From Candidatus Saccharimonadota bacterium (GTDB lineage Bacteria > Patescibacteriota > Saccharimonadia > Saccharimonadales > Saccharimonadaceae), in NCBI GenBank assembly GCA_017460105.1, contig JAFUBS010000007.1, positions 1 through 55,948 of the forward strand: 55,948 bases of DNA, written 5' to 3'. Made by a program: the position numbers and the translations under genes. Each line of letters starts with the position of its first letter. Position 1 is the stretch's first letter. The notes beneath the pieces were generated by a model that was given only the letters and a program-made list of their open reading frames with translations, was not told the origin of the DNA and did not search any database. This document shows positions 1,077 to 41,592 of the stretch, in pieces.

Positions 1077-2030
1077 TTAATCTGCGTTTGCCTTGCTCCT
1101 TCTCCTTGCTCTAGCCACAAAGTAGATAATGATAGCGGCGATAATGAAGACAATGAGGAAGAGTAGCCAGACTGGACAGACAATCACCATTTTCTTTACC
1201 TCAGCCTTTGCACCTTCAAATTCGACAGTGTAGACGACATTAAAGATTCCTACCATAGGCGTTTCGTCCCACGAAGATTCTGAATATACAGTCCTATTCG
1301 GTAGCACGGTTGCAGTGTCAGGATTTTCTTCATTAGTGTAAATCTCTTCACTAGAAAATAGCGGGAATACCTGTAATTTGTAGGTAGCAGTACCATGTAC
1401 GTTACCTGTGTTCTTCACGGATGAAGAACCAGTTATCTTGCCCGAGAGCAAGAAGCTAGGCACTTTTGCATCAAAGACCTCACCTGTCTTTATAGTAGCA
1501 CCAGTTACTTCAGCGTATACCAAGTGAGCCATTCTACGGATTTCTTTGATAGTAGTACCATCTGTAGCAGCACTTTCGTCCTCTTCATCAGAACTCTTAC
1601 TTTTACTCGTAGTCGCAATAGATGCGTATTGTCCACCTGCTGGAGCGTCCTTAGGCACATTTACTTTAAAAGTGATTTCCTTTACTTCGTTCGGTGATAA
1701 TTTGCCACTTGTTGGCACGTCGAAAGTGATCCATTTTACAATCTCGCCCATGTCCCCCTCAGTCTGAAAGACGAATTCATTATTATCATTTTTGTAAAAT
1801 GGTTCAACCTCAATCTCATAATATGTATCGTGTGTAGAAGATGCAGGATTAGAAATCTTGAAAGAGCCTTCAGCGACTTCTCCGGGATTTAGGATCATCT
1901 TCTGACTCATTGGGGAAACAGTCAATGCGTATCCATCAGCAAAAACACTTGACGCAGAAAGAACGGGTACAAGAAACGTCAAAACCGACAAACCAATCCA
2001 TCTCAAAACATTTTTTATATATTTGTTCAT
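1077..2030 (-). CDS. Secreted, C-terminally anchored beta-sandwich protein (DUF916/PapD-like)
   Basis: This is a 317-residue protein with an N-terminal signal peptide (hydrophobic core about 13-24, cleavage near the FADG at 30). Two beta-sandwich regions follow, then a strong C-terminal membrane helix (about 285-307) and a basic RARRRSK tail. The first domain (YALTVSPMSQKMILNPGE, then FKISNP and FDVP motifs) resembles the extracellular domain of DUF916/WxL-interacting proteins and PapD-like folds. It should be held at the cell surface. AAAGGAGG lies 3-4 bases before the ATG, and an extended -10 (TGCTATAAT, 2055-2063) lies upstream. It follows 2066-2629 on the same strand, and 2721-3332 lies further upstream. 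The fold is inferred from motifs only. Confidence 0.7.
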   Translation of the reverse strand: MNKYIKNVLRWIGLSVLTFLVPVLSASSVFADGYALTVSPMSQKMILNPGEVAEGSFKISNPASSTHDTYYEIEVEPFYKNDNNEFVFQTEGDMGEIVKWITFDVPTSGKLSPNEVKEITFKVNVPKDAPAGGQYASIATTSKSKSSDEEDESAATDGTTIKEIRRMAHLVYAEVTGATIKTGEVFDAKVPSFLLSGKITGSSSVKNTGNVHGTATYKLQVFPLFSSEEIYTNEENPDTATVLPNRTVYSESSWDETPMVGIFNVVYTVEFEGAKAEVKKMVIVCPVWLLFLIVFIIAAIIIYFVARARRRSKANAD

Positions 2031-2065: not shown

Positions 2066-2629
2066 TTATTTCGAAATAACGCAATCAAGACCTTTTCCGT
2101 TGTATGTCTTCGTTAAACTATTTACGCTATAGCTACCGGCTAATCCGTCCAGAAGGAAATACTTAGCCGTAATCGCATTCAACTCATTACGATTCGCATA
2201 TAGAGATAGCTGGGAAGCTTTAGGTAGAGTAGAAATCTTCTTCCCCAACGATTCATATCCTATATTGTCCTCAGCAAATGCCTTAGCAATAGCAACAGAA
2301 TTAGCGTCAGAGGCTCTTTCTGCACGCTCGTTGGTACCAAAAGACTGCTTGTAAGTCAAATATGCATTTTCCAGCTTGTCTTTACTTATGACAACGGATA
2401 CTTCTAGCTCATGGCTATTCTCACCATTACTTGGTAAGAAAGGATAAGCCAACTCAGAACTCTTGCACGTAACGGACTGCGTAACTTCAACGTCGCCGCT
2501 ACTTGCCGTATAAGTCGTCTCACCATGTATCAGAAAGAGTATTATTAGAACCACCGCCAAGACCAACAACAATCCAGCACATAGAATCAATATCCAATTA
2601 ATATTCCTTTTTTCTGAACTTTTATTCAT
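2066..2629 (-). CDS. Single-pass membrane protein, unknown function
   Basis: A 187-residue protein with a short basic cytoplasmic N-terminus, one transmembrane helix (about 12-33) and an extracellular domain of about 150 residues with two cysteines (near 54 and the C-terminus) that could pair. I recognise no family. The start has AGGAGG 4 bases upstream, and TGCTATATT (2652-2660) is a good extended -10. It lies 36 bp ahead of the DUF916-like gene on the same strand. The extended -10 at 2055-2063 inside the gene's end gives that neighbour its own promoter. It probably belongs to the same surface complex, by position only. Confidence 0.65.
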   Translation of the reverse strand: MNKSSEKRNINWILILCAGLLLVLAVVLIILFLIHGETTYTASSGDVEVTQSVTCKSSELAYPFLPSNGENSHELEVSVVISKDKLENAYLTYKQSFGTNERAERASDANSVAIAKAFAEDNIGYESLGKKISTLPKASQLSLYANRNELNAITAKYFLLDGLAGSYSVNSLTKTYNGKGLDCVISK

Positions 2630-2676: not shown

Positions 2677-2700
2677 AAAGAGTCCCCGAAGGGACTCTTT
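2677..2700 (-). terminator. Rho-independent terminator of the 2721-3332 gene
   Basis: A 10-bp stem AAAGAGTCCC / GGGACTCTTT with a 4-nt loop, followed on the minus strand by a T-rich run. The same hairpin closes the paralogous gene at 4413-4438, so the duplication included the terminators. Confidence 0.9.
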
Positions 2701-2720
2701 AATAACTCTCTTAGAGATTA

Positions 2721-3332
2721 CTAATCATTAAGAGCTACAGTGTAGGTAATGCTTCCAGCATAGTGGCCAGGCTTCTGGCTTGGAGAAACATATACTCTAT
2801 AAGCAGGATTGAAATTAAAGCTTGTAGAAGTATTAGCAGCCTGATTTGAAACTACAGTAGTCTCTGCAACTGGAGCAGCTGACCAAGTTGCTGCAGTATC
2901 TGATGGATTACCCAAAGTATAAGCCCAAGCCGAAGTTGTGCCAGAAGTTGCAGTACCAGCAGGAATCGTAGTAGTAGTATCATCATGTGTCAAAGCTTCA
3001 CCTTCAGCCGTGATATTGAAGGTTTTGTTGTCGCTGTCAGCAACGTTACACTTAACGACTAGAGCTGGAGCAGTCGTAGCTGGCTCAGAATCTCCAGCTT
3101 CTGTACCAGTCAAGATTTCAGAAGTACCAGCAGCGATAGTCTTAGAGAAATTACGATCAGCGTATACGCCAGGGTTAGTAGCTGCAGTTGCTGCGTTTTC
3201 AATAGTACAACCACCATCAACAGTAACGTCGATATTATCAGTGAAAGTACTGCTAGTAGCAGCAAATACACCAACTACCGGCATAGCGGCGAGAGCTACT
3301 GAAGCGGCACCAGCGATTAAAGTTTTTTTCAT
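2721..3332 (-). CDS. Secreted surface protein, paralogue A of an inverted pair
   Basis: A 203-residue protein with a clear signal peptide (MKKTLIAGAASVALAAMPVV, cleavage after FAA near 25). The mature domain is threonine/alanine-rich and beta-rich and ends in YTVALND. The C-terminal segment VYVSPSQKPGHYAGSITYTV resembles the last strands of bacterial pilin-like and WxL-type surface domains. Four scattered mature motifs (GGCTIENAA, FSKTIAAGT, TATSG.TSAWAYTL, FNPAYRVYV) are shared with the gene at 3767-4387. There is no cell-wall anchor. A consensus promoter (3409-3437), a 70-nt leader with hairpin TCTGC-TTTTTA-GCAGA and a GGAG site precede it. Confidence 0.75.
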   Translation of the reverse strand: MKKTLIAGAASVALAAMPVVGVFAATSSTFTDNIDVTVDGGCTIENAATAATNPGVYADRNFSKTIAAGTSEILTGTEAGDSEPATTAPALVVKCNVADSDNKTFNITAEGEALTHDDTTTTIPAGTATSGTTSAWAYTLGNPSDTAATWSAAPVAETTVVSNQAANTSTSFNFNPAYRVYVSPSQKPGHYAGSITYTVALND

Positions 3333-3386
3333 AGTTTTTAGTCTCCTCTGCTAAAAAGCAGAATTAATTTATATTTTGTGTTAAAT
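3269..3386 (-). repeat. Left arm of a 118-bp inverted repeat
   Basis: Positions 3269-3386 and the reverse complement of 3713-3831 agree over the whole length with a single mismatch in my base-by-base comparison. The repeat covers the mRNA leader (with its hairpin and Shine-Dalgarno site) and the codons of the signal peptide up to residue 21. Beyond that point the two genes diverge strongly. Confidence 0.92.
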
Positions 3387-3712
3387 GTAATGACCTTTAA
3401 CATTTCTTATTTTACATAACCAAAAGCGCAATGTCAATAAATTTTTTAAAGATTTTTTAAACATTTTTACGGAGTTTTCCACAAGCAACTCTAGCCTTAA
3501 TCGGCGTCATCTATATCTTATATTTGTATGCATAAGCGGTTTATTGAGATGTGATATTTTACTAAATAGATTACCAGAATTGCATCCCATCAAAAGGCTC
3601 TAGCTAAGGTTATCTGATTTATTACAATCTTTATTTCTAAATTATGAGAATCAAAGCCGTATGTATTATATATGCATGTTTTGTGACTAATATGCCTATA
3701 TCAGCTTTTCAT
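3387..3712. other. Spacer between inverted repeats, carries one clear promoter
   Basis: This 326-bp A/T-rich spacer contains no convincing open reading frame. A consensus promoter (3409-3437) points left into paralogue A. Reading right I see only a weak TATTAT with a poor -35 box. Recombination between the flanking repeats would invert this spacer and turn the promoter towards paralogue B. Confidence 0.6.
3409..3437 (-). promoter_or_regulatory. Promoter of paralogue A
   Basis: TTGACA (3432-3437), a 17-bp spacer and TAAAAT (3409-3414) on the minus strand. The start point near 3402 gives a leader of about 70 nt. Confidence 0.85.
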
Positions 3713-3831
3713 ATTTAACACAAAATATAAACTAATTCTGCTTTTTAGCAGAGGAGACTAAAAACTATGAAAAAAACTTTAATCGCTGGTGCCGCTTCAG
3801 TAGCTCTCGCCGCTATGCCGGTAGTTGGTGC
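3713..3831 (+). repeat. Right arm of the 118-bp inverted repeat
   Basis: Mirror copy of 3269-3386. It includes the leader hairpin, GAGGAGA ribosome site, start codon and signal-peptide codons of the gene at 3767. Confidence 0.92.
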
Positions 3832-4387
3832 ATTTGCCGCCACGAGTAGCCAATTGATTGATACCGTCAACGTGACCGTTCAAGGCGGTTGTACAATTGA
3901 AAATGCTGCCGAGGGCGCAACTCCTGGTGACTACACTGTAAACGATCGTACTTTCTCTAAGACTATTGCTGCTGGTACTTTTGAGGAAATAACTGGCACT
4001 GAAACTGAAGGTTCTGTTACCCCAGCTCAAGCTATGAAGATTAAGTGTAACGTTGCTCAGTCAGATAGCAGAAAGTTTAGCATTACTGCACAGGGTACTG
4101 CTTTGACGCATACTGATAACTCAACTACGATTCCTGTAGGTACTGCTACGAGTGGTAATACTTCTGCTTGGGCTTATACTTTGAATTATACAGATGATAA
4201 CCCAACTTGGGCTAATGCTCCAGTTTCGCAGACGACCGTTGTAACGTCTCAGGATGCTAGTACTTCTACTAATTATAGCTTTAATCCAGTCTATCGTGTG
4301 TATGTTGCTCCAGGTCAGAAACCAGGCGCATATACTGGCACCATTACTTACACTGTAGCTCTTGATGCTGTTCAGCAACAGCCATAA
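3767..4387 (+). CDS. Secreted surface protein, paralogue B of an inverted pair
   Basis: A 206-residue paralogue of 2721-3332 on the opposite strand. Its first 21 residues are identical (same signal peptide). The mature part keeps the motifs GGCTIENAA, FSKTIAAGT and YRVYV but differs in most loops, and the C-terminus is longer (ALDAVQQQP). Two conserved cysteines (in GGCT and KCNVA) may form a disulfide. The leader hairpin and GAGGAGA site are the same as in paralogue A, but no strong promoter lies in front of the repeat. It could therefore be silent, weakly expressed or expressed after inversion of the spacer. Function unknown; probably a cell-surface or pilin-like subunit. Confidence 0.75.
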   Translation: MKKTLIAGAASVALAAMPVVGAFAATSSQLIDTVNVTVQGGCTIENAAEGATPGDYTVNDRTFSKTIAAGTFEEITGTETEGSVTPAQAMKIKCNVAQSDSRKFSITAQGTALTHTDNSTTIPVGTATSGNTSAWAYTLNYTDDNPTWANAPVSQTTVVTSQDASTSTNYSFNPVYRVYVAPGQKPGAYTGTITYTVALDAVQQQP

Positions 4388-4412
4388 TTGCATATAGTGC
4401 AAGTTTCGGAAT

Positions 4413-4438
4413 AAAGAGTCCCTTCGGGGACTCTTTTT
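4413..4438 (+). terminator. Rho-independent terminator of paralogue B
   Basis: A 10-bp stem AAAGAGTCCC-TTCG-GGGACTCTTT followed by TT, 25 bp after the stop. It is the mirror copy of 2677-2700. Confidence 0.9.
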
Positions 4439-4535: not shown

Positions 4536-4937
4536 TTAAAGAAATGTCAATACACTTGAATTTTTATCTATAACTACCAGTTCTTTTATTGTAGAGTCAG
4601 CACTAGCCAAGAAACCATTTATTCTAGAAATAGCATTTCTATTATTCATCTTGCACCTAGACAAATCCAAAATAACCCTACTTGATTGATGCGAAGCATT
4701 CCGCAGATTATTCGCAATGGTTCGTTTGCCATTGCCTTTTGGGCTTTTGAGCTCCCAAATTTGATTTGTTCTTTTGACTAGAAAATCTGGAGATGTATTT
4801 ATTCCACGCCTTAAAAACACTAAATCAGATTTAAAATGCTCGGCAATAATATATGCGGCCTTTAATTCATGCTCGGCAGGAATAGGATGCAAGCCACTTT
4901 CGATTACGACACTGTAGATCTTTTTCTTTTTTTCCAT
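4536..4937 (-). CDS. CdiA C-terminal tRNase-like nuclease domain, stand-alone
   Basis: A 133-residue protein made almost entirely of one domain. The motifs HELKAAYIIAEHF, then TSPDFLVKRTNQIWELKSP, then NA.HQSSRVILD match the PD-(D/E)XK-like nuclease domain found at the C-terminus of CdiA contact-dependent inhibition toxins and in phage/ICE proteins. The presumed metal-binding residues are the D of SPDF and the E and K of WELKS. There is no signal peptide and no delivery domain. AAAGGA lies 5 bases before the ATG, and a strong promoter (4985-5014) and a terminator make it monocistronic. No adjacent immunity gene is visible. It could be a toxin, a captured domestic nuclease or an effector; the activity is inferred. 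Confidence 0.65.
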   Translation of the reverse strand: MEKKKKIYSVVIESGLHPIPAEHELKAAYIIAEHFKSDLVFLRRGINTSPDFLVKRTNQIWELKSPKGNGKRTIANNLRNASHQSSRVILDLSRCKMNNRNAISRINGFLASADSTIKELVVIDKNSSVLTFL

Positions 4938-5050: not shown

Positions 5051-5908
5051 TTAGCTATACTTGTCAAACAACTCCTTTAGTCTCCCATCAAACCCATGCA
5101 GATACCGCTCCGTCGTCGCCACTGACGAATGCCCAATCATCTCCTTGATTTCCGACACCGTAGCACCCTTCATCTGTAGATTCGTCGCGAATGAATGTCT
5201 CAAGGCATGAGGATAAAACCCTTCAAACCCCGCCTGCAAAAAGGCACGACGTAGCCTCAGCCTCACTGTATGCGCCACTGGTGGCTCTCCATTCAGCGTC
5301 ACAGCCGCCTCATACACACCCCACAAATACTCTCGTATGCCATATTTCTGCACGAAGTCACGTACCGCCGCCACCGTCTCCGCATGCAAATACACTTCGC
5401 GTGGCTTTCTTCCTTTGCCAACGAATCTCACCTTGCGCCCACAGAAACCCGGTTCAAAGTTATCAACCCTTAATCTCGTAAGCTCCGCTATTCTCATCCC
5501 AGTTTCAAACATTATTCGTATCATTAGCCCCGTCTCTTCATCTGCTAGCGCGACTACCTTTGCTATGTCTGCCGCTGTATAGAACTTGCGCTCAGTCTTC
5601 CCCTCTTTGAGCTTTCCAATCAGCGCTATGTTTAGAGGTATCCGCATTCCCATTTCCCTGTAATACCTCACCATAGCAAATATCACCGAATTATAGATAT
5701 TTACCGATGCTCCACAGACGCCACGTCCTAGTTCGTACTCCATCCATTCATCAAATACTTCATTCGTTAGAGCGCTCAAGCTCTCCAACCCAGTCATTCT
5801 CACAAAACGCTCCAAAATGCTCCGTTTTGCCGTCAAAGTCACCTCCGTCATCCGACGCACTTTTTCGCAGTACAACAAATAATCCCCCATTTCCTTCTCT
5901 ATTGTCAT
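5051..5908 (-). CDS. Tyrosine recombinase, XerC/XerD family
   Basis: A 285-residue site-specific recombinase of normal length. The N-terminal SAM-like DNA-binding domain covers about residues 1-100 and the catalytic domain about 107-285. All catalytic residues are visible: R139 (GMRIAELTRLR), K165 (VGKGRK), H234 and R237 (HALRHSF), H260 (GHSS) and the nucleophile Y269 (TTERYLHG). The start has AGGAG 6 bases upstream. A full-length, intact Xer protein fits chromosome dimer resolution, but an integrase role cannot be excluded because it stands alone beside a toxin-like gene. I see no dif-like 28-bp site nearby. Confidence 0.85.
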   Translation of the reverse strand: MTIEKEMGDYLLYCEKVRRMTEVTLTAKRSILERFVRMTGLESLSALTNEVFDEWMEYELGRGVCGASVNIYNSVIFAMVRYYREMGMRIPLNIALIGKLKEGKTERKFYTAADIAKVVALADEETGLMIRIMFETGMRIAELTRLRVDNFEPGFCGRKVRFVGKGRKPREVYLHAETVAAVRDFVQKYGIREYLWGVYEAAVTLNGEPPVAHTVRLRLRRAFLQAGFEGFYPHALRHSFATNLQMKGATVSEIKEMIGHSSVATTERYLHGFDGRLKELFDKYS

Positions 5909-5970: not shown

Positions 5971-6465
5971 TCAGAGATAAGCCCCAATCCACTTCCTAAA
6001 CGCATCCTCGTAGTTGTAGGCATCCGAATCCGCATCTTCATCCGCTCGAAGCCACACCACAGGCTTGCCACGCGACACTAGTACGACCGAAGGATAATAC
6101 TTCACGAAGTCATGCGCCGAACAATCCCTTACATCACTAAACATCATCCTGTACGGCTTTACTCCGGCCTCTGCGGCCCAATTTAGTACAAATTCTCTTA
6201 GTTTATCCGCCGTATGACACCCGCCCTGATCCACAAACAGCACAAAAGAATCACCATTTAATACTTTTTCCTCATATTCCGGCACCGTCAAATCCGTGAA
6301 TTCTCGTGTGCAGTTCTCGCCACAATAATCGTTCTCGTCTAATACTACCTTTATACTAGAAAACCACCCGCTCACAGCGCCCACAAACAATACTCCACCC
6401 AGGACGACAGCCAGCAGCGCCACCACTAGACCAATTATCTTTGCGTTCTTCGCCTTTTTCTTCAT
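5971..6465 (-). CDS. Membrane-anchored thioredoxin-like protein
   Basis: A 164-residue protein with an N-terminal membrane helix (about 10-33) and an extracellular thioredoxin-like fold. The pattern SFVLFVDQGGCHTADKLREF matches the strand-loop-helix of the thioredoxin active site, but the second cysteine is replaced (C-H-T instead of C-x-x-C). Another pair (CGENC) lies before the domain. A cis-proline-type YPSVVLVSRGKPV segment follows. The start codon directly abuts the stop of the rhodanese-like gene, so the two are co-translated. It is probably a surface redox or thiol-binding protein; with one active-site cysteine an isomerase-like or non-catalytic role is possible. Confidence 0.65.
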   Translation of the reverse strand: MKKKAKNAKIIGLVVALLAVVLGGVLFVGAVSGWFSSIKVVLDENDYCGENCTREFTDLTVPEYEEKVLNGDSFVLFVDQGGCHTADKLREFVLNWAAEAGVKPYRMMFSDVRDCSAHDFVKYYPSVVLVSRGKPVVWLRADEDADSDAYNYEDAFRKWIGAYL

Positions 6466-7152
6466 CTATTTCTCCGTTAGTACGTCGAAATCTATCTCAT
6501 GATATGGCACTTTGTAGAAATCATAGACAGTCTTACCGTCAGCATTGACGCGTTTTACCGCCACACTATTGTCCCCCTCGTAGAACCAATATCCGCCTGT
6601 GTTGTATATGCGTGAGCCATCCCAGCCCAGCGCTACTAACATATTTTTCATCATTCCAGAATATCCGCCACCACCACACATTAGGAATATCACCTTGTCC
6701 TTCGGGAATAGAGCCTCAAGTATCTCCATGGATTCCTTATAATTCGCTACGTAATTGCCATTCCCCTTGTCTGTGAATAACGTATCTCCGTCATAAGTAT
6801 CACCCACTTCGGCTGGCAATCCCGTAACATTCACGATATAAGGTAACGGCACCACTTCGTATCCATTCACAAACCCAGACAAATACGAATCTCCGCCAAT
6901 CGCCTCATAATTCCCTGGATCCTTCAGCATTCTGAGGTCACGATACACCGCATCGCTTCTACCCAAGTACTTATCAATCGTAGCCTCATTGACATTCTTG
7001 TCTATTCCTAATTCTCCACGCTGCCCATCAGACACTTCTGGCGCTGGCAAGACAGCCAACTGCTCTGCCGGAAAAGTATATCTTCCCAACAAAAACGCCC
7101 CAGCAATCAACAATACCGAAGCTATGCATACACCCCAAATCCATTTTTTCAT
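6466..7152 (-). CDS. Membrane-anchored rhodanese-like protein
   Basis: A 228-residue protein with one N-terminal membrane helix (about 4-22) and an extracellular domain resembling rhodanese. KVIFLMCGGGGYSGMMKNML near residues 153-172 looks like the rhodanese active-site loop with its sulfur-accepting cysteine, and is followed by the usual LVALGW helix and a YNTGGYWFYEG strand. The loop is glycine-rich where rhodaneses normally have charged residues, so substrate specificity is unclear. It lies 21 bp downstream of the secreted HNH nuclease and abuts the thioredoxin-like gene. The three form an operon of surface proteins. Confidence 0.6.
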   Translation of the reverse strand: MKKWIWGVCIASVLLIAGAFLLGRYTFPAEQLAVLPAPEVSDGQRGELGIDKNVNEATIDKYLGRSDAVYRDLRMLKDPGNYEAIGGDSYLSGFVNGYEVVPLPYIVNVTGLPAEVGDTYDGDTLFTDKGNGNYVANYKESMEILEALFPKDKVIFLMCGGGGYSGMMKNMLVALGWDGSRIYNTGGYWFYEGDNSVAVKRVNADGKTVYDFYKVPYHEIDFDVLTEK

Positions 7153-7173
7153 ATTTCCTCCACTTTTCTTCTA

Positions 7174-7899
7174 TTATACACCAATTGCCGGCTCGTTTGG
7201 ACATTTTTCCAAAATCCTTGCTATGGCCTCTTTTTCCGCCTTTGTTACCCATAGCCCATACTTATATTTTACCGATACCTGTCTCGCCACATACTGACAA
7301 CGGAATTTTTTGTTTGCCGGCAGCCACGTCGCTGCATCACCGTCAGATTTTTTCTCGTTTGCAGCCGCATCTACCGCCAATAAGTTCAAGGGGTCAGTCG
7401 CGATATTATACCTAACATCCGCAGGCATATACTGCGCGCCTTTCTGCCACGCATCAGACAACGCCACTACGTGATCTATCTGCACGCCGTTAGATATCTC
7501 TTCTCGCGTCGTGAAGACTTTGTGCTCCCCAGTGTATGGTTCATCATATTCGCCAGCCATTACATTGCAACCATCTAGTACTGCCGTGTCACCAAATTCT
7601 CTCTTAATTATCCTCTGGCGCAGATTACAGCCATCAACCATCGGCCATTCACTATAGAATTCATCTCGTTTGTATCCAGTCTTTGGTGCCCGCCCTTTTA
7701 CCTCTAACTTTTCTAAAATATCTACCGCTAGAGGAGCATTTGCATCCGGCTCACTCACAGCTATCGCACCATAATCCTCCCCTGTATTCTCCGCCAAAGT
7801 ATAAAAACGCTCATAACTCGCCGGATTACAAATCACCCACGCCGCCACCCCGACAAGCGCCATAATCACAGCCAGTAACCTCCGTTTTTTTAGCTTCAT
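7174..7899 (-). CDS. Secreted HNH endonuclease, DUF1524/GmrSD C-terminal type
   Basis: A 241-residue protein with an N-terminal signal/anchor helix (about 7-22). The nuclease domain shows QIDHVVALSDAWQKGAQ (catalytic DH), DPLNLLAVDAAANEKKSDGD and a final WLPANKKFRCQYVARQ motif, in the order of the secreted DUF1524 HNH family. Such nucleases let nucleotide-auxotrophic bacteria degrade external DNA, which fits a Saccharibacteria-like parasite. TGCTATAAT (7907-7915) ends 7 bases before the ATG, so the mRNA should be leaderless or nearly so. It is the first gene of the operon with the rhodanese-like and thioredoxin-like genes. Confidence 0.85.
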   Translation of the reverse strand: MKLKKRRLLAVIMALVGVAAWVICNPASYERFYTLAENTGEDYGAIAVSEPDANAPLAVDILEKLEVKGRAPKTGYKRDEFYSEWPMVDGCNLRQRIIKREFGDTAVLDGCNVMAGEYDEPYTGEHKVFTTREEISNGVQIDHVVALSDAWQKGAQYMPADVRYNIATDPLNLLAVDAAANEKKSDGDAATWLPANKKFRCQYVARQVSVKYKYGLWVTKAEKEAIARILEKCPNEPAIGV

Positions 7900-22037: not shown

Positions 22038-22559
22038 AAAATTAGTTCCGAGCAAGAAATGCTACAATTCGGAGAAAAATTCGGCAAAAATATTGTTGAT
22101 AGCGACTTAGAAAATACCTTTCGAGACATTTCGCGACCAACGGGGAGCGAGTTAGCGAGGAGCCCCGTAACGACGGGTGCGACGAAGCGTGTCGAGAAAG
22201 GTGTTTCTAAGTCGCCCGCCAGAAATATGGTTATCGAGCTCATTGGTGACGTTGGCGCCGGCAAGACTACTTTTGTTCGCGGACTAGCTCAAGGCCTCGG
22301 CATCAAAGAACCCATTACTAGCCCAAGTTTCACAATTTCCAAATCCTACGCCATTCCTTCCGGCGGAACTCTTACACACTACGACTTTTATCGTCTCTCC
22401 GACCCTGGCCTCATGTTGGACGATTTACAAGAATCTATCAATAATGACAAAATCGTAATTGTCGAATGGGCAGACTCCGTCGCAAACATCCTGCCCGAAA
22501 ATCGCATTATTATCCGAATTAATTACAACGACGACGGCTCACGGGAGATAATATTATGA
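22035..22559 (+). CDS. tsaE: tRNA threonylcarbamoyladenosine ATPase TsaE with in-frame insertion
   Basis: A 174-residue P-loop ATPase of the t6A37 tRNA modification complex. Walker A GDVGAGKT (71-78), SPSFTISKSY (96-105), HYDFYRL and the family-typical EWAD (144-147) are intact. Residues about 23-60 (DSDLENTFRD... to VSKS) come from the palindromic element at 22102-22215 and sit in the loop before the first core strand (VIELIGDVGAGKT). The family is usually about 140-150 residues. The ATG at 22035 follows TATAAT by 6 bases, so the longer frame upstream is excluded. It overlaps tsaB by 4 bp. Confidence 0.93.
   Translation: MKISSEQEMLQFGEKFGKNIVDSDLENTFRDISRPTGSELARSPVTTGATKRVEKGVSKSPARNMVIELIGDVGAGKTTFVRGLAQGLGIKEPITSPSFTISKSYAIPSGGTLTHYDFYRLSDPGLMLDDLQESINNDKIVIVEWADSVANILPENRIIIRINYNDDGSREIIL
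22102..22215 (+). repeat. GC-rich palindromic element inside tsaE
   Basis: Arms GCGACTTAGAAA...ACCTTTCGAGACA and TGTCGAGAAAGGTGTTTCTAAGTCGC (each given in part) are inverted copies. The 114-bp span equals 38 codons. The core has GCGACCAACGGGGAGCGA and AGCCCCGTAACGACGGG, nearly identical to the elements in lepA and recX. Relative to the host gene it lies in the opposite orientation to those two, so it encodes a different peptide. Confidence 0.9.
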
Positions 22560-28991: not shown

Positions 28992-30851
28992 CTAGTCGCG
29001 CTTTAGCATTACCGTGAACGCTTCGGAAGGAATATCGATTTTGCCAAACCGCTTCATTCTCGCCTTACCACGCTTTTGTTTTTCAAGCAATTTTGCCTTG
29101 CGATCACGATCACCGGTATGGATTTTTACCGTCACATCCTTACGATAGGCTCCAATCGTTTCGCGCGCAATGATTCTCGCGCCAATCGCCGCTTGCAGTG
29201 CCACTTCCCAGTTCTGTCGCGGTATTACTTCTTTTAATTTCTTCGTAGTTTCTCGCCCAATCGCATCTGCCTCAGACCTATGGCACATTACCGATAGGGC
29301 GTCAATCTTATGTCCGCCAACCAAGAAATCCACTCGCACCAAATCCTCGGTTTTATATCCATTTAATTCGTAATTGAACGAAGCGTATCCACTCGTCGCG
29401 GACTTCAACTGGTCATAGAAATCCGTCAGCAAATTCGCCATCGGCGCCTCAAAATCAATCACCGCACGCTCCTCGATATACGACAAATTCGTCTGGTGAC
29501 CACGTTTTTCGTTGATGAGATTAAGTACATTTCCAATCATATTCTTCGGTAAGATGATCTCGCCTTTTACCCACGGCTCACGTATCTCGCTAATTTCCGA
29601 CACGTCAGGAAGATCTGCCGCAGATTTTATTTCACGAATCTCACCATTCGCCATCACGACTTCGTAATTCGTAGACGGATTAGTTACGATCAGGTCTAGT
29701 CCGAACTCTCGCTCTAAACGCTCCTTAATAATGTCCATATGAAGTAGCCCCAAGAATCCAATCCGAAGTCCAAATCCCAAAACCGGCGAATTTTCCGGCT
29801 CGTATCTGAGTGCCGAATCTGACAGCGCCAACTTTTCAATCGCTTCTTTCAAATCCTTGTATTGGTCATTAGAAACTGGGAAAAACCCTGCATAAACAAA
29901 CGGCAAAACATTCTTGTATCCTGGCAAGGCCTCCATTGCGGAGTTCTTTACTAGAGTTACCGTATCACCCACCTTCGCTTCGCGCGTTGATTTGAGATTG
30001 GTCACAATATAGCCAATCTCTCCTTCTGACAGCTTTTCGCGTGGCGACATTTTTGGCGTAAGTACCCCGACTTCTAGCGCCAAGCCCTTCGTCCCTGCCG
30101 CCATCATCTTAATCTCGGCATTCTTCGGAATCTCCCCCTCAAAAATCCGCACATACAACACAACACCACGATAATCATCAAAATAACTGTCAAAAATCAA
30201 TGCGCGTGTAGGTGAAACACCTGAACGGTGGTTAGGTAATTCCTCTGAGGAATCTTCGCGACCAACGGGGAGCGAACGAAGCGACTGAGCCCCGTAACGA
30301 CGGGCGCGAAGGAGCGGGTCCGAAGAGGAATTACTAACCACCCTATCAAGGATTTTTTCTACTCCGAATCCAGTTTTGCCAGACGCTTCAATTATATCCT
30401 CACGTTTGCACCCAAGCAGATTAATTATTTGCGCCGCCACCCCCTCCACATCCGCCGCCGGCAAATCTACTTTGTTAATTACGGGGATAATCGTCAAATC
30501 CTGCTCTATTGCGAGATAAACATTCGCCAGAGTCTGCGCCTGAATGCCTTGTGTCGCGTCTACTACTAATACTGCAATCTCCACCGCCTGCAAACTACGC
30601 GATACTTCATAAGAAAAATCCACATGTCCCGGCGTATCTATAAGGTTGAGAGTATACCCCTTCCATTGCATGGTTACAGGCGCCAGTTTTATCGTAATTC
30701 CTTTTTCTCGTTCTAGTTCCATGGAATCAAGAAGCTGCGCTTTCATTTCACGCTTTTCTACTGTCCCAGTTAGCTCCATCATCCTATCCGCAATTGTGGA
30801 CTTCCCATGATCAATATGCGCAATGATGCAAAAATTACGAATCTTATCCAT
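28992..30851 (-). CDS. lepA: Elongation factor 4 (LepA) with in-frame insertion
   Basis: A 619-residue translational GTPase (family about 600). AHIDHGKST (11-19), DTPGHVDF (G3), NKVDLP (G4), the EF-G-like domains and the LepA-specific C-terminal domain (KLLEKQKRGKARMK, IPSEAFTVML) are present. Residues about 170-208 (SNSSSDPLLRARRYG... to LPNHRSG) are encoded by the palindromic element at 30227-30342. They replace the normal short loop between the G domain (KILDRVV) and domain 2 (SPTRALIFDSYFDDYRG). TGATATAAT (30860-30868) is 8 bases before the ATG, so the leader is at most 1-2 nt. Confidence 0.96.
   Translation of the reverse strand: MDKIRNFCIIAHIDHGKSTIADRMMELTGTVEKREMKAQLLDSMELEREKGITIKLAPVTMQWKGYTLNLIDTPGHVDFSYEVSRSLQAVEIAVLVVDATQGIQAQTLANVYLAIEQDLTIIPVINKVDLPAADVEGVAAQIINLLGCKREDIIEASGKTGFGVEKILDRVVSNSSSDPLLRARRYGAQSLRSLPVGREDSSEELPNHRSGVSPTRALIFDSYFDDYRGVVLYVRIFEGEIPKNAEIKMMAAGTKGLALEVGVLTPKMSPREKLSEGEIGYIVTNLKSTREAKVGDTVTLVKNSAMEALPGYKNVLPFVYAGFFPVSNDQYKDLKEAIEKLALSDSALRYEPENSPVLGFGLRIGFLGLLHMDIIKERLEREFGLDLIVTNPSTNYEVVMANGEIREIKSAADLPDVSEISEIREPWVKGEIILPKNMIGNVLNLINEKRGHQTNLSYIEERAVIDFEAPMANLLTDFYDQLKSATSGYASFNYELNGYKTEDLVRVDFLVGGHKIDALSVMCHRSEADAIGRETTKKLKEVIPRQNWEVALQAAIGARIIARETIGAYRKDVTVKIHTGDRDRKAKLLEKQKRGKARMKRFGKIDIPSEAFTVMLKRD
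30227..30342 (-). repeat. GC-rich palindromic element inside lepA
   Basis: Outer arms GGTGGTTAGGTAATTCCTC and GAGGAATTACTAACCACC are inverted copies with one extra base. The core GCGACCAACGGGGAGCG and GAGCCCCGTAACGACGGGCG matches recX and tsaE. The encoded peptide shares RARRYGAQSL with the recX copy because orientation and frame are the same. Confidence 0.92.
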
Positions 30852-39038: not shown

Positions 39039-39859
39039 TACCCGGTTATCTCTCCTGATTCTTCCACCAAACTCTTTACCAAATCATACTGGAATCCTTG
39101 TCGGCACAAATACGCAATTAGTTTTTCATCGTCATAACGCGCGCGTTTTTTTGCAATTATCTTTTTGATTTCTTCTTCGTCATTCCTCTCTGAGTTATCC
39201 AAAACTCGCTCAATTATATCTCTCGCCACGCCTTTTTTCATGAGTTCCATCTTAAGACGTTTCATGGAAATTCCTTTTTTTACAAACCGATTTTCCACGT
39301 AATATCTCGCAAACTTTTCGTCATCAATATAGCCTCTACTCGCAAGCCGAGAGATAATTTTTTCCGAAAACTCAGCAAAGTCTTCTGAGGACCCTCCGCG
39401 ACCAACGGAGAGCGGACCGAGCGACTGAGCCCCGTAACGACGGGCGCGAAAGAGCGCATCCGAGGAAGACTTTTTGAGCTTCCGGATAATATGATCTTTG
39501 ACCTCGCTTTCACTCCTTGGTCTAGTCAGTACCCATTCCAGGGCTCGCTGATACGCTTTTCCAAATTCCGAAGCCTTTTTGTAATCGGCTAGTTGCTCCT
39601 CTGTGATGATTAGTCCTTTTTTTATTCCCAAATCCACCACTTGTGCAATATCTAACGAAAAGGAATATTTTCCGTTCACAAAAATGTTTACACGATTCTC
39701 ATTTTTTGCCGCCTGCTTAATGTCAGTAATGACATAATCAGAGTTTTTCTCGTCAAAAACAGCTTCAGGACCATGTCCGCCCTCGGCTATTTTTCCTCGC
39801 GAAGCTCTTCGCCTAGATTTTTCCTCCGGAATTTCGTCACTTAGTTTGTAGATATCCAT
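39035..39859 (-). CDS. recX: RecA regulator RecX with in-frame insertion
   Basis: A 274-residue member of the RecX family of three-helix repeats. KAYQRALEWVLTRPRSESEVKDHII, GYIDDEKFARYYVENRF and KGISMKRLKMELMKKG (given in part) are typical. An N-terminal extension of about 60 residues carries a strand-rich VNGKYSFSLDIAQV segment found in some RecX. Residues about 128-163 (SSSDALFRARRYGAQSL...) come from the palindromic element at 39371-39478 and separate helix 1 from helix 2 of the first repeat. RecX limits RecA filaments. It overlaps the Nudix gene by 23 bp in the recA-nudix-recX operon. Confidence 0.88.
   Translation of the reverse strand: MDIYKLSDEIPEEKSRRRASRGKIAEGGHGPEAVFDEKNSDYVITDIKQAAKNENRVNIFVNGKYSFSLDIAQVVDLGIKKGLIITEEQLADYKKASEFGKAYQRALEWVLTRPRSESEVKDHIIRKLKKSSSDALFRARRYGAQSLGPLSVGRGGSSEDFAEFSEKIISRLASRGYIDDEKFARYYVENRFVKKGISMKRLKMELMKKGVARDIIERVLDNSERNDEEEIKKIIAKKRARYDDEKLIAYLCRQGFQYDLVKSLVEESGEITGY
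39371..39478 (-). repeat. GC-rich palindromic element inside recX
   Basis: Outer arms CTCAGCAAAGTCTTCTGAGGA and TCCGAGGAAGACTTTTTGAG (each shown partly) are inverted copies. The core GCGACCAACGGAGAGCGGA and GAGCCCCGTAACGACGGGCG is nearly identical to the lepA copy. The 108 bp equal 36 codons, all open. Same orientation and frame as in lepA. Confidence 0.92.
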
Positions 39860-40403
39860 TTTGCTTAAACCATCTCTTCAGACACTTAAAGGTAATTTTA
39901 TCCTTTCGCAAAGGTTTCTTCGCAAATCTCTCACGAAATTTTTCCATCCCTGCATACGGAATCCATCTCACTTCCGATACCTCCCCATCATCAAATTTAA
40001 AATCCTCTTCTTTTCCCGTATAATCTACTGCATATATCCAAGCAAAACGATTTTTGTTAAACGGACTCATTGTTACGAAACGTAATTCCTCAGGCGAAAT
40101 CTTTGCACCGATTTCTTCCCAAGCCTCACGTGCTGCAGCTTCCGGCAGACTTTCGCCCAGATTAATGTGCCCGCCAGCCGAAATATCCCACATTCCAGGA
40201 TGACGGCTCACCTTATCCGAACGTCTTTGCCACAACACTTCCAATGCACCCTCTTCATTTACGCGAAACAAAAACACTATTGCGACACCGACAATTTCAT
40301 TCGCACCAGAATCTTCCGGATTATCTAGCGCCGAATCCCACCCTTTTCCAGGTATTGCTTCACCATTCGGAGCATAGACTTGCCACAGCTCGTCTGTATG
40401 CAT
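39837..40403 (-). CDS. NUDIX hydrolase
   Basis: A 188-residue protein with a complete Nudix box: GGHINLGES, then REAWEEIG (G-x5-E-x7-RE-x2-EE-x-G) near residues 77-99. The fold LWQVYAPNGEAIPG at the N-terminus followed by HPGMWDISAGGH resembles the isopentenyl-diphosphate isomerase-like Nudix subgroup, which often hydrolyses nucleoside or isoprenoid diphosphates. The exact substrate is unknown. The ATG overlaps the recA stop (TAATG) and the 3' end overlaps recX, so it is co-translated in a recombination operon. Confidence 0.9.
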   Translation of the reverse strand: MHTDELWQVYAPNGEAIPGKGWDSALDNPEDSGANEIVGVAIVFLFRVNEEGALEVLWQRRSDKVSRHPGMWDISAGGHINLGESLPEAAAREAWEEIGAKISPEELRFVTMSPFNKNRFAWIYAVDYTGKEEDFKFDDGEVSEVRWIPYAGMEKFRERFAKKPLRKDKITFKCLKRWFKQNGYLQTK

Positions 40404-41431
40404 TATTCAACCTTTGCTTTTTCGCGTACTTTGGCTTCAATCTCTTCCATTAGTTCTGGCTTTTCTTTGAACAACTTCTTCACCGCCTCGCGCCCTTGGC
40501 CAATCGTCTCGCCATTGTACTTGATGAACGCACCAGCCTTGTCTAGTACGCCATACTGAATACCGAGATCTAGGATATCACCAGTCTTAGAAATCCCCTC
40601 GTTGTACATAATATCAAATTCCGCCGTCCTAAATGGCGCTGCAATCTTATTCTTCACGACCTTAATCTTTGTACGGTTACCGGCAATATTGTCACCATCT
40701 TTAATCTGACCAATTCTACGAATATCTACGCGCACTGAAGCATAGAATTTGAGCGCGTTTCCACCCGTCGTAGTCTCTGGATTACCAAACATTACCCCAA
40801 TTTTCATACGAATCTGATTAATAAAGATTACCGTGGCACGAGATTTAGAAATGATGCCAGTGAGCTTCCTCATCGCTTGCGACATGAGTCTAGCCTGAAG
40901 TCCCATTTGTGCATCGCCCATATCGCCATCAATCTCAGCCTGCGGCACCAATGCGGCCACAGAGTCTACCACAATGAGATCAACCGCATTAGAACGCACT
41001 AAGGTTTCACAAATTTCCAATGCTTGCTCGCCATTATCTGGCTGCGAAATCAATAAGTCCTCCGTCTTTACGCCAATTTTCTTAGCATATGCCGGATCTA
41101 GGGCATGCTCTGCGTCAATAAACGCCGCTTGTCCACCCTGCTTCTGAATCTCTGCGATTGCATGAAGCGCCAAAGTCGTCTTACCAGATGATTCTGGTCC
41201 ATAAATCTCAATGATACGCCCTTTCGGCCAACCACCACCAAGCGCCAAATCTAGCGACAAAGAACCAGAAGGCAAGAGTTCTACATCCATTCTTGGCGTC
41301 TCACCCAACTTCATAATTGAACCGTCACCAAATTGCTTCGTAATTTGCGAAATTGCGAGCTTCAAGGCTTCTGATCGTCCGTCATCTTTCTTCGTTTTTG
41401 TATTATCCACCGCCGCATCTTTTTTTGCCAT
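40403..41431 (-). CDS. recA: Recombinase RecA
   Basis: A 342-residue DNA strand-exchange protein. Walker [10 protein letters not shown] (78-86), [35 protein letters not shown], loop L2 [19 protein letters not shown] (in part) are all present. The ATG at 41431 is chosen because AAAGG lies 7 bases before it and a TATAAT lies about 30 bases upstream; the longer frame to 41506 runs through that promoter. No LexA box is visible. First gene of recA-nudix-recX. Confidence 0.97.
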
Positions 41432-41592
41432 AATAGTATTACCTTTCTTCTGACAATTATACATTATTTTATACTTTTTGCCCACCTTCACCACCTTCTC
41501 TAGCACGGCACAAAATCAAAGTCAACCCTAGGGGGCTTCAAAACATCCTGCTCCCGCTTTATATACCCGTCAAATAATGCTATAATATTCTT

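Follow-up and report, generated by a model that had tools for sequence, protein, structure and literature searches.

Saccharibacteria are episymbionts with very small genomes that grow attached to the outside of other bacteria, and the locus described here raises the question of whether one of them can exchange the protein that it displays by turning a short, promoter-bearing segment of DNA around between two paralogous genes, and which kind of recombination would do the turning. The window, meaning the whole stretch of 55,948 nucleotides that was analysed, is an entire contig (C8) of a 649-kb genome in 13 contigs (G000), and the comparison set comprised 174 genomes of the genus, with one genome per species.

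Two mirrored genes around a single promoter

As the preliminary description of this DNA had claimed, two intact paralogous genes of one family, here named P, stand head to head in the window: gene A (2721-3332, minus strand, 203 aa), which has a signal peptide and would encode a secreted, pilin-like surface protein, and gene B (3767-4387, plus strand, 206 aa), the two being divergently oriented and 70% identical. Their leaders and signal-peptide codons form an inverted repeat of 118 nt, of which 117/118 positions are identical, with the arm of A at 3269-3386 on the minus strand and the arm of B at 3713-3830 on the plus strand; the length and the single mismatch had been described correctly, and only the end given earlier, 3831, lies one base too far. 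An imperfect longer repeat continues beyond these arms (3190-3386/3713-3909, 88%), and the terminators are also mirror copies, as previously proposed, forming a perfect 25-nt pair at 2677-2701 (minus strand, between A and the next gene of its operon) and 4412-4436 (plus strand, for B).

A recent duplication can be rejected as the cause of the arm identity. Codons 1-21 of A and B show zero synonymous differences over 17 synonymous sites, whereas from codon 22 onward dS is ~0.79 and dN is ~0.26; the identity of the arms is thus not a leftover of a young duplication, and the 5' ends of both genes must have been homogenised recently, which agrees with the earlier claims of diverged mature domains and of recent recombination or gene conversion in the arms. 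The dN/dS of ~0.33 for the A/B comparison suggests purifying selection on A and B alike.

The spacer between the arms (3387-3712, 326 bp) is the segment proposed to invert and contains, as had been reported, a single good promoter directed toward A, namely TTGACA-17-TAAAAT on the minus strand (3437-3409), which scores 11/12 and is like the promoter found at the ON operon of the relatives. The best candidate on the plus strand (3544-3572) scores 9/12, at chance level, and an independent promoter for B is rejected, given that the candidates do not rise above those of shuffled sequence (13 found vs. 12.9 expected). Gene A faces the promoter and is predicted to be ON, and gene B, which has no promoter beyond chance, is predicted to be OFF; here and in the sister species, these ON and OFF labels rest on promoter sequence. 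The 5' leader hairpin GTTAAAG...TTTAAC (3379-3402, minus strand) takes one half from the promoter side and the other half from the proposed recombination site, so an inversion would rebuild this hairpin in front of B.

Other repeats were observed elsewhere in the window. A palindromic repeat of ~95 bp lies in frame within conserved genes at 22107-22210 (tsaE-like), 30232-30337 (lepA), and 39372-39477 (recX), has 13 full or partial matches in its own genome, and resembles the Rickettsia repeats that are located inside genes. A second inverted repeat pair (11051-11115/36466-36530, 75%), the first copy of which is inside a ychF-like gene, is possibly another in-gene repeat family.

A short core and its linked recombinase across the genus

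The core of the arms, TTTAACACAAA(A)TATAAA, occurs in exactly two copies in its own genome, both at the A and B arms, and this, together with 118 nt carrying one mismatch, leads us to reject a chance origin of the repeat. The proposed recombination sites are TTTAACACAAAATATAAATTAATTCTGC on the A side (3358-3385, minus strand), the presence of which in the genus goes along with that of the recombinase, and TTTAACACAAAATATAAACTAATTCTGC on the B side (3714-3741, plus strand), which matches the core. The ATTTAACACAA part of the core presumably resembles a XerD half-site, and a search of the genus for the genomic dif site found no clean single site.

Near the pair lies gene R (5051-5908, minus strand), a dedicated Xer-like tyrosine recombinase that we propose as the invertase from its catalytic residues and its co-occurrence with the core. 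The residues R139, K165, H234, R237, H260, and Y269 are kept in 27/27 homologues, and the locus-linked relatives of R form one clade in the tree (support 100/99); the R homologues of G071, G084, G082, G103, G101, G023, and G134 (contig C8) fall outside this linked clade and showed no adjacent core. Against the NCBIfam equivalogs, R reached 108 bits, below the cut-offs of 335 for XerC and 220 for XerA. It is also unlikely to be the ordinary chromosome-dimer resolvase, as a separate and distant Xer-like gene exists in its own genome (G000, contig C2, 6431-6982) and in nearly all the others, and the linked clade is separate. Between B and R there is a CdiA_C-like protein by profile match (4536-4937, minus strand), a neighbour with no more than a putative link to the switch, a relative of which was observed in G072 (L102:4716-5105) at ~3.5 kb from the recombinase.

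Among the 174 genomes of the genus, the exact core is present in 22 and close relatives of R (E < 1e-85) in 20, and both are found together in 17 (P ~2e-16, a statistic that ignores the kinship of the genomes); the reversed control pattern of the core gave zero matches in the same 174 genomes, and a longer related core pattern was absent outside the genus among 392 genomes sampled from the order. Three genomes have R without the exact core, two of them (G181 and G139) with variant cores in both arms and the third (G186) with a contig that ends 87 bp past R. The core stands alone, with no close recombinase, in five genomes (G088, G081, G025, G078, and G134). What the two arms have in common in four species (G063, G132, G185, and G181) is hardly more than a core of ~24 bp, and the ribosome-site hairpins or the flanks differ; the other genomes, window included, have long arms that are identical into the signal peptide. 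A shared repeat this short argues for site-specific and not for homologous recombination.

Promoter orientation in the sister species and the competing readings

We read 14 contiguous head-to-head P pairs (G000, G007, G012, G018, G063, G072, G094, G096, G100, G132, G139, G153, G181, and G185), and exactly one promoter per pair was found in 14/14. In most species, this promoter sits between two mirror-image operons of three genes, P-T-D, where P is the pilin-like protein, T a membrane protein, and D a WxLIP-like protein, with the recombinase placed beside the pair or, in G007, G096, G100, and G139, within the spacer. In the window, A heads such an operon, followed by T (2066-2629, minus strand) and then D (1077-2030, minus strand), and B lacks both T and D, so a flip would also silence these two genes unless they were otherwise supplied; in the window, the switch may exist in reduced form, with B as a decaying half.

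Several species depart from the simple pair. G153 and G132 have further P genes, placed tail to tail and enclosed by sites that face inward, and three operons share one promoter in G094; with such layouts, more than two states could be shuffled. Tail-to-tail P genes between inward-facing cores, possibly small shufflons, were located at L153:9346-10623 and L149:2871-4661, and in three-operon loci (L106 and L039/L115), 20-30 bp beside the site are common to both OFF ends and missing from the promoter end.

Wherever the contigs reach far enough, the locus is flanked by two landmarks, a conserved three-gene block (5971-7899, minus strand) and the 5' end of the 23S rRNA gene (~1-400, named from sequence). 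The proposed device comes back in about 20 sister species at an equivalent chromosomal position. Relative to these fixed flanks, both promoter orientations occur between species: the promoter faces the 23S rRNA gene in the window, as in G007, G018, G063, G096, G153, G132, and G094, and faces the opposite way in G072, G100, and G185. The P-T-D operon on the right in G018 has an orthologue in the same place and orientation in G072, with 73% of the nucleotides identical along 2267 bp and identities of 73% for P, 63% for T, and 73% for D, and this operon is ON in G018 and OFF in G072. Ten loci without recombinase have rightward operons only. G185 alone has a broken recombinase, with two stop codons, and the T and D genes of its OFF operon are also broken, as expected if a locked switch lets its OFF side decay; apart from G185, the OFF operons are intact. 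We suggest keeping in mind that the species compared are related, and these comparative signals are thus not independent.

Contig ends also crowd at the sites, 8/36 of which lie within 150 bp of one vs. ~0.45 expected; this hints at mixed orientations and is suggestive only, as repeats alone can cause it. Two contig ends at the site that are identical over ~140 nt, L150 (G134:C5) and L103 (G035:C10), come from different species bins, and we did not use them as proof of both orientations in one population, since a repeat longer than the assembler k or mis-binning may explain them.

Taken at sequence level, a site-specific invertible promoter is the reading that we favour, with a probability of roughly 0.85. 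R would recombine the inverted core sites located at the spacer ends of the two arms, and the flip of the spacer would set the sigma-70 promoter, along with half of the leader hairpin, in front of either A (with T and D) or B; because the sites lie in the 5' leader, both states would yield the same leader. The cell would then display A or B, but not both, as its pilin-like surface protein, and most sister species would express one of their two mirror-image P-T-D operons at a time. We infer catalysis by R, switching within a strain, the OFF state of B, and a role in attachment or evasion. The preliminary idea that a promoter inverts to serve one or the other of two surface-protein genes gains strong support from the single promoter of all 14 pairs, the opposite orientations between species, and the G018/G072 operon; its restriction to two antigens is too narrow for most species, where whole operons would be switched; and its proposal of homologous recombination as the main engine is probably mistaken, given a dedicated tyrosine recombinase that co-occurs with a ~24-bp core outlasting the divergence of the arms.

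It is improbable, in our opinion, that the spacer inverts by general RecA-mediated homologous recombination between the 118-bp arms, with the neighbouring recombinase doing something else. This would suit the close identity of the arms and their homogenisation inside each genome (leader identity 0.92 within vs. 0.81 between genomes; signal peptide 0.85 vs. 0.70), and a recA gene is present in the window (40403-41506); however, the ~24 bp shared in the four short-armed species are too short for efficient RecA exchange, the core co-occurs tightly with one recombinase clade, and no leftward operon exists in loci without recombinase. In the Campylobacter fetus sap S-layer inversion, one promoter is flanked by divergently oriented genes for surface proteins, the 5' ends of which are conserved, and the process depends on long homology and RecA; in the present loci, in contrast, long homologous arms are not always found, the repeat being reduced to ~24 bp in those same species, and a recombinase is linked. 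Even under site-specific inversion, a further process is called for, given that core exchange would not homogenise the signal-peptide codons, the identity of which probably comes from gene conversion or from an occasional homologous exchange.

There is little to recommend a fixed divergent pair without present inversion, where A is expressed, B is a silent donor, the 5' identity comes from gene conversion, and the orientation differences are ancient rearrangements. One genome represents the species, orientations are compared between species, and B lacks T and D, all of which such a pair would accommodate; nevertheless, the orthologous operon of G018 and G072 differs in state (ON and OFF, respectively) within the same flanks, the OFF genes are intact where the recombinase is intact, including B with its low dN/dS, and the dedicated recombinase keeps all its catalytic residues. 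Finally, constant transcription of both A and B, with a non-sigma-70 promoter for B and arms conserved only as a common secretion or translation leader, is very improbable, since, despite the two conserved hairpins of the leader and the GTTAAA...TTTAAC that is carried also in the leaders of genes without recombinase, those leaders nearly all lack the exact core, every ON leader has one and the same promoter form, and the OFF leaders, alike downstream from TTTAACAC, have almost no common sequence upstream of it and are unrelated there between species (a comparison in which only regions outside the core are informative, because the core was used to find the leaders).

Surface products and relation to known switches

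P and T gave nothing convincing in Pfam and NCBIfam, and the signal peptides of P proteins end in AMPVVGVFAATSS with no cysteine. The low-confidence P model (paralogue B, pLDDT 65) resembles the donor-strand-exchange pilins CfaB (Foldseek E 1.8e-4) and CsuA/B (Csu pilin VIA, Z 8.6, rmsd 6.0 over 137 residues). T is a small membrane-anchored protein that follows P in the relatives too, and D is, by profile and fold comparison, a two-domain protein similar to WxLIP or pilus chaperones with a C-terminal membrane helix: its match to Pfam WxLIP_PGBD (13.6 bits) is below the cut-off of 27.3, and the best solved fold for its model (pLDDT 70) is WxLIP (Z 11.7, rmsd 13.5 over 184 residues), with pilus chaperones near-tied, the model being like the WxLIP of Enterococcus and its first domain like the pilus chaperones FimC and CsuC. 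From these models, the P-T-D products could form a fibre or an adhesin at the cell surface, together with an anchor or chaperone fixed in the membrane.

The closest known design is that of the vpma genes of Mycoplasma agalactiae and the vsp genes of M. bovis (recombinases Xer1 and Mbr), where the 5' UTR and signal-peptide codons are conserved across a surface-protein family, and a unique promoter, an adjoining Xer-type tyrosine recombinase, and proposed sites in the 5' untranslated region are found (PMC2268961). The A/B locus, the genes of which likewise have leader and signal peptide in common, and which has one promoter, a Xer-type recombinase close by, and its site in the leader, works alike and yet is not a member of that system, since its products are not lipoproteins, having no lipobox cysteine at the signal cleavage, and whole operons are mirrored, i.e., two operons with two accessory genes instead of a lipoprotein gene array. 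It also belongs to another phylum, the likeness of the recombinases is a general Xer similarity, and the core is set beside vpma by site position only. In Mycoplasma penetrans, the mpl promoters are inverted through 12-bp inverted repeats by a tyrosine recombinase (PMC2268961, PMC3047005); this promoter inversion through short inverted repeats is similar, although each mpl gene has its own ON/OFF promoter, whereas here one promoter would choose between two genes or operons. In Ureaplasma mba/UU376 and M. pulmonis vsa, the surface-protein genes have inverted repeats at their 5' ends where inversion takes place, with Xer-like recombinase candidates (PMC3047005, PMC2268961). Part of the vsa coding region moves with the promoter, unlike here, where, on the site-specific reading, promoter and leader only would move.

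The G153 and G132 loci resemble shufflons such as that of R64 Rci, in that the tail-to-tail placement of their extra P genes, with sites facing inward on both sides, would permit cassettes to be swapped, although here the sites are in the leaders of whole genes and not inside a coding region. The fimS element of E. coli, an invertible promoter for surface fibres driven by the tyrosine recombinases FimB and FimE, turns one operon ON or OFF; the locus described here is similar, with a second operon as the alternative. In the literature that we searched, no report of a DNA inversion switch turned up for Saccharibacteria or the candidate phyla radiation.

More tentatively, and as a possibility that we would not yet call probable, the whole could be a genus-wide device in which one recombinase and one core toggle mirror-image operons for alternative surface fibres with a chaperone-like anchor, with G153, G132, and G094 shuffling more than two cassettes, so that the attachment surface of a host-dependent bacterium would change at random. 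The locus supplies a defined and testable site, recombinase, and promoter. If the switch is true, even the reduced genomes of Saccharibacteria pay for phase variation of their surface proteins, and it probably varies their attachment to the host or their escape from phages or host defences.
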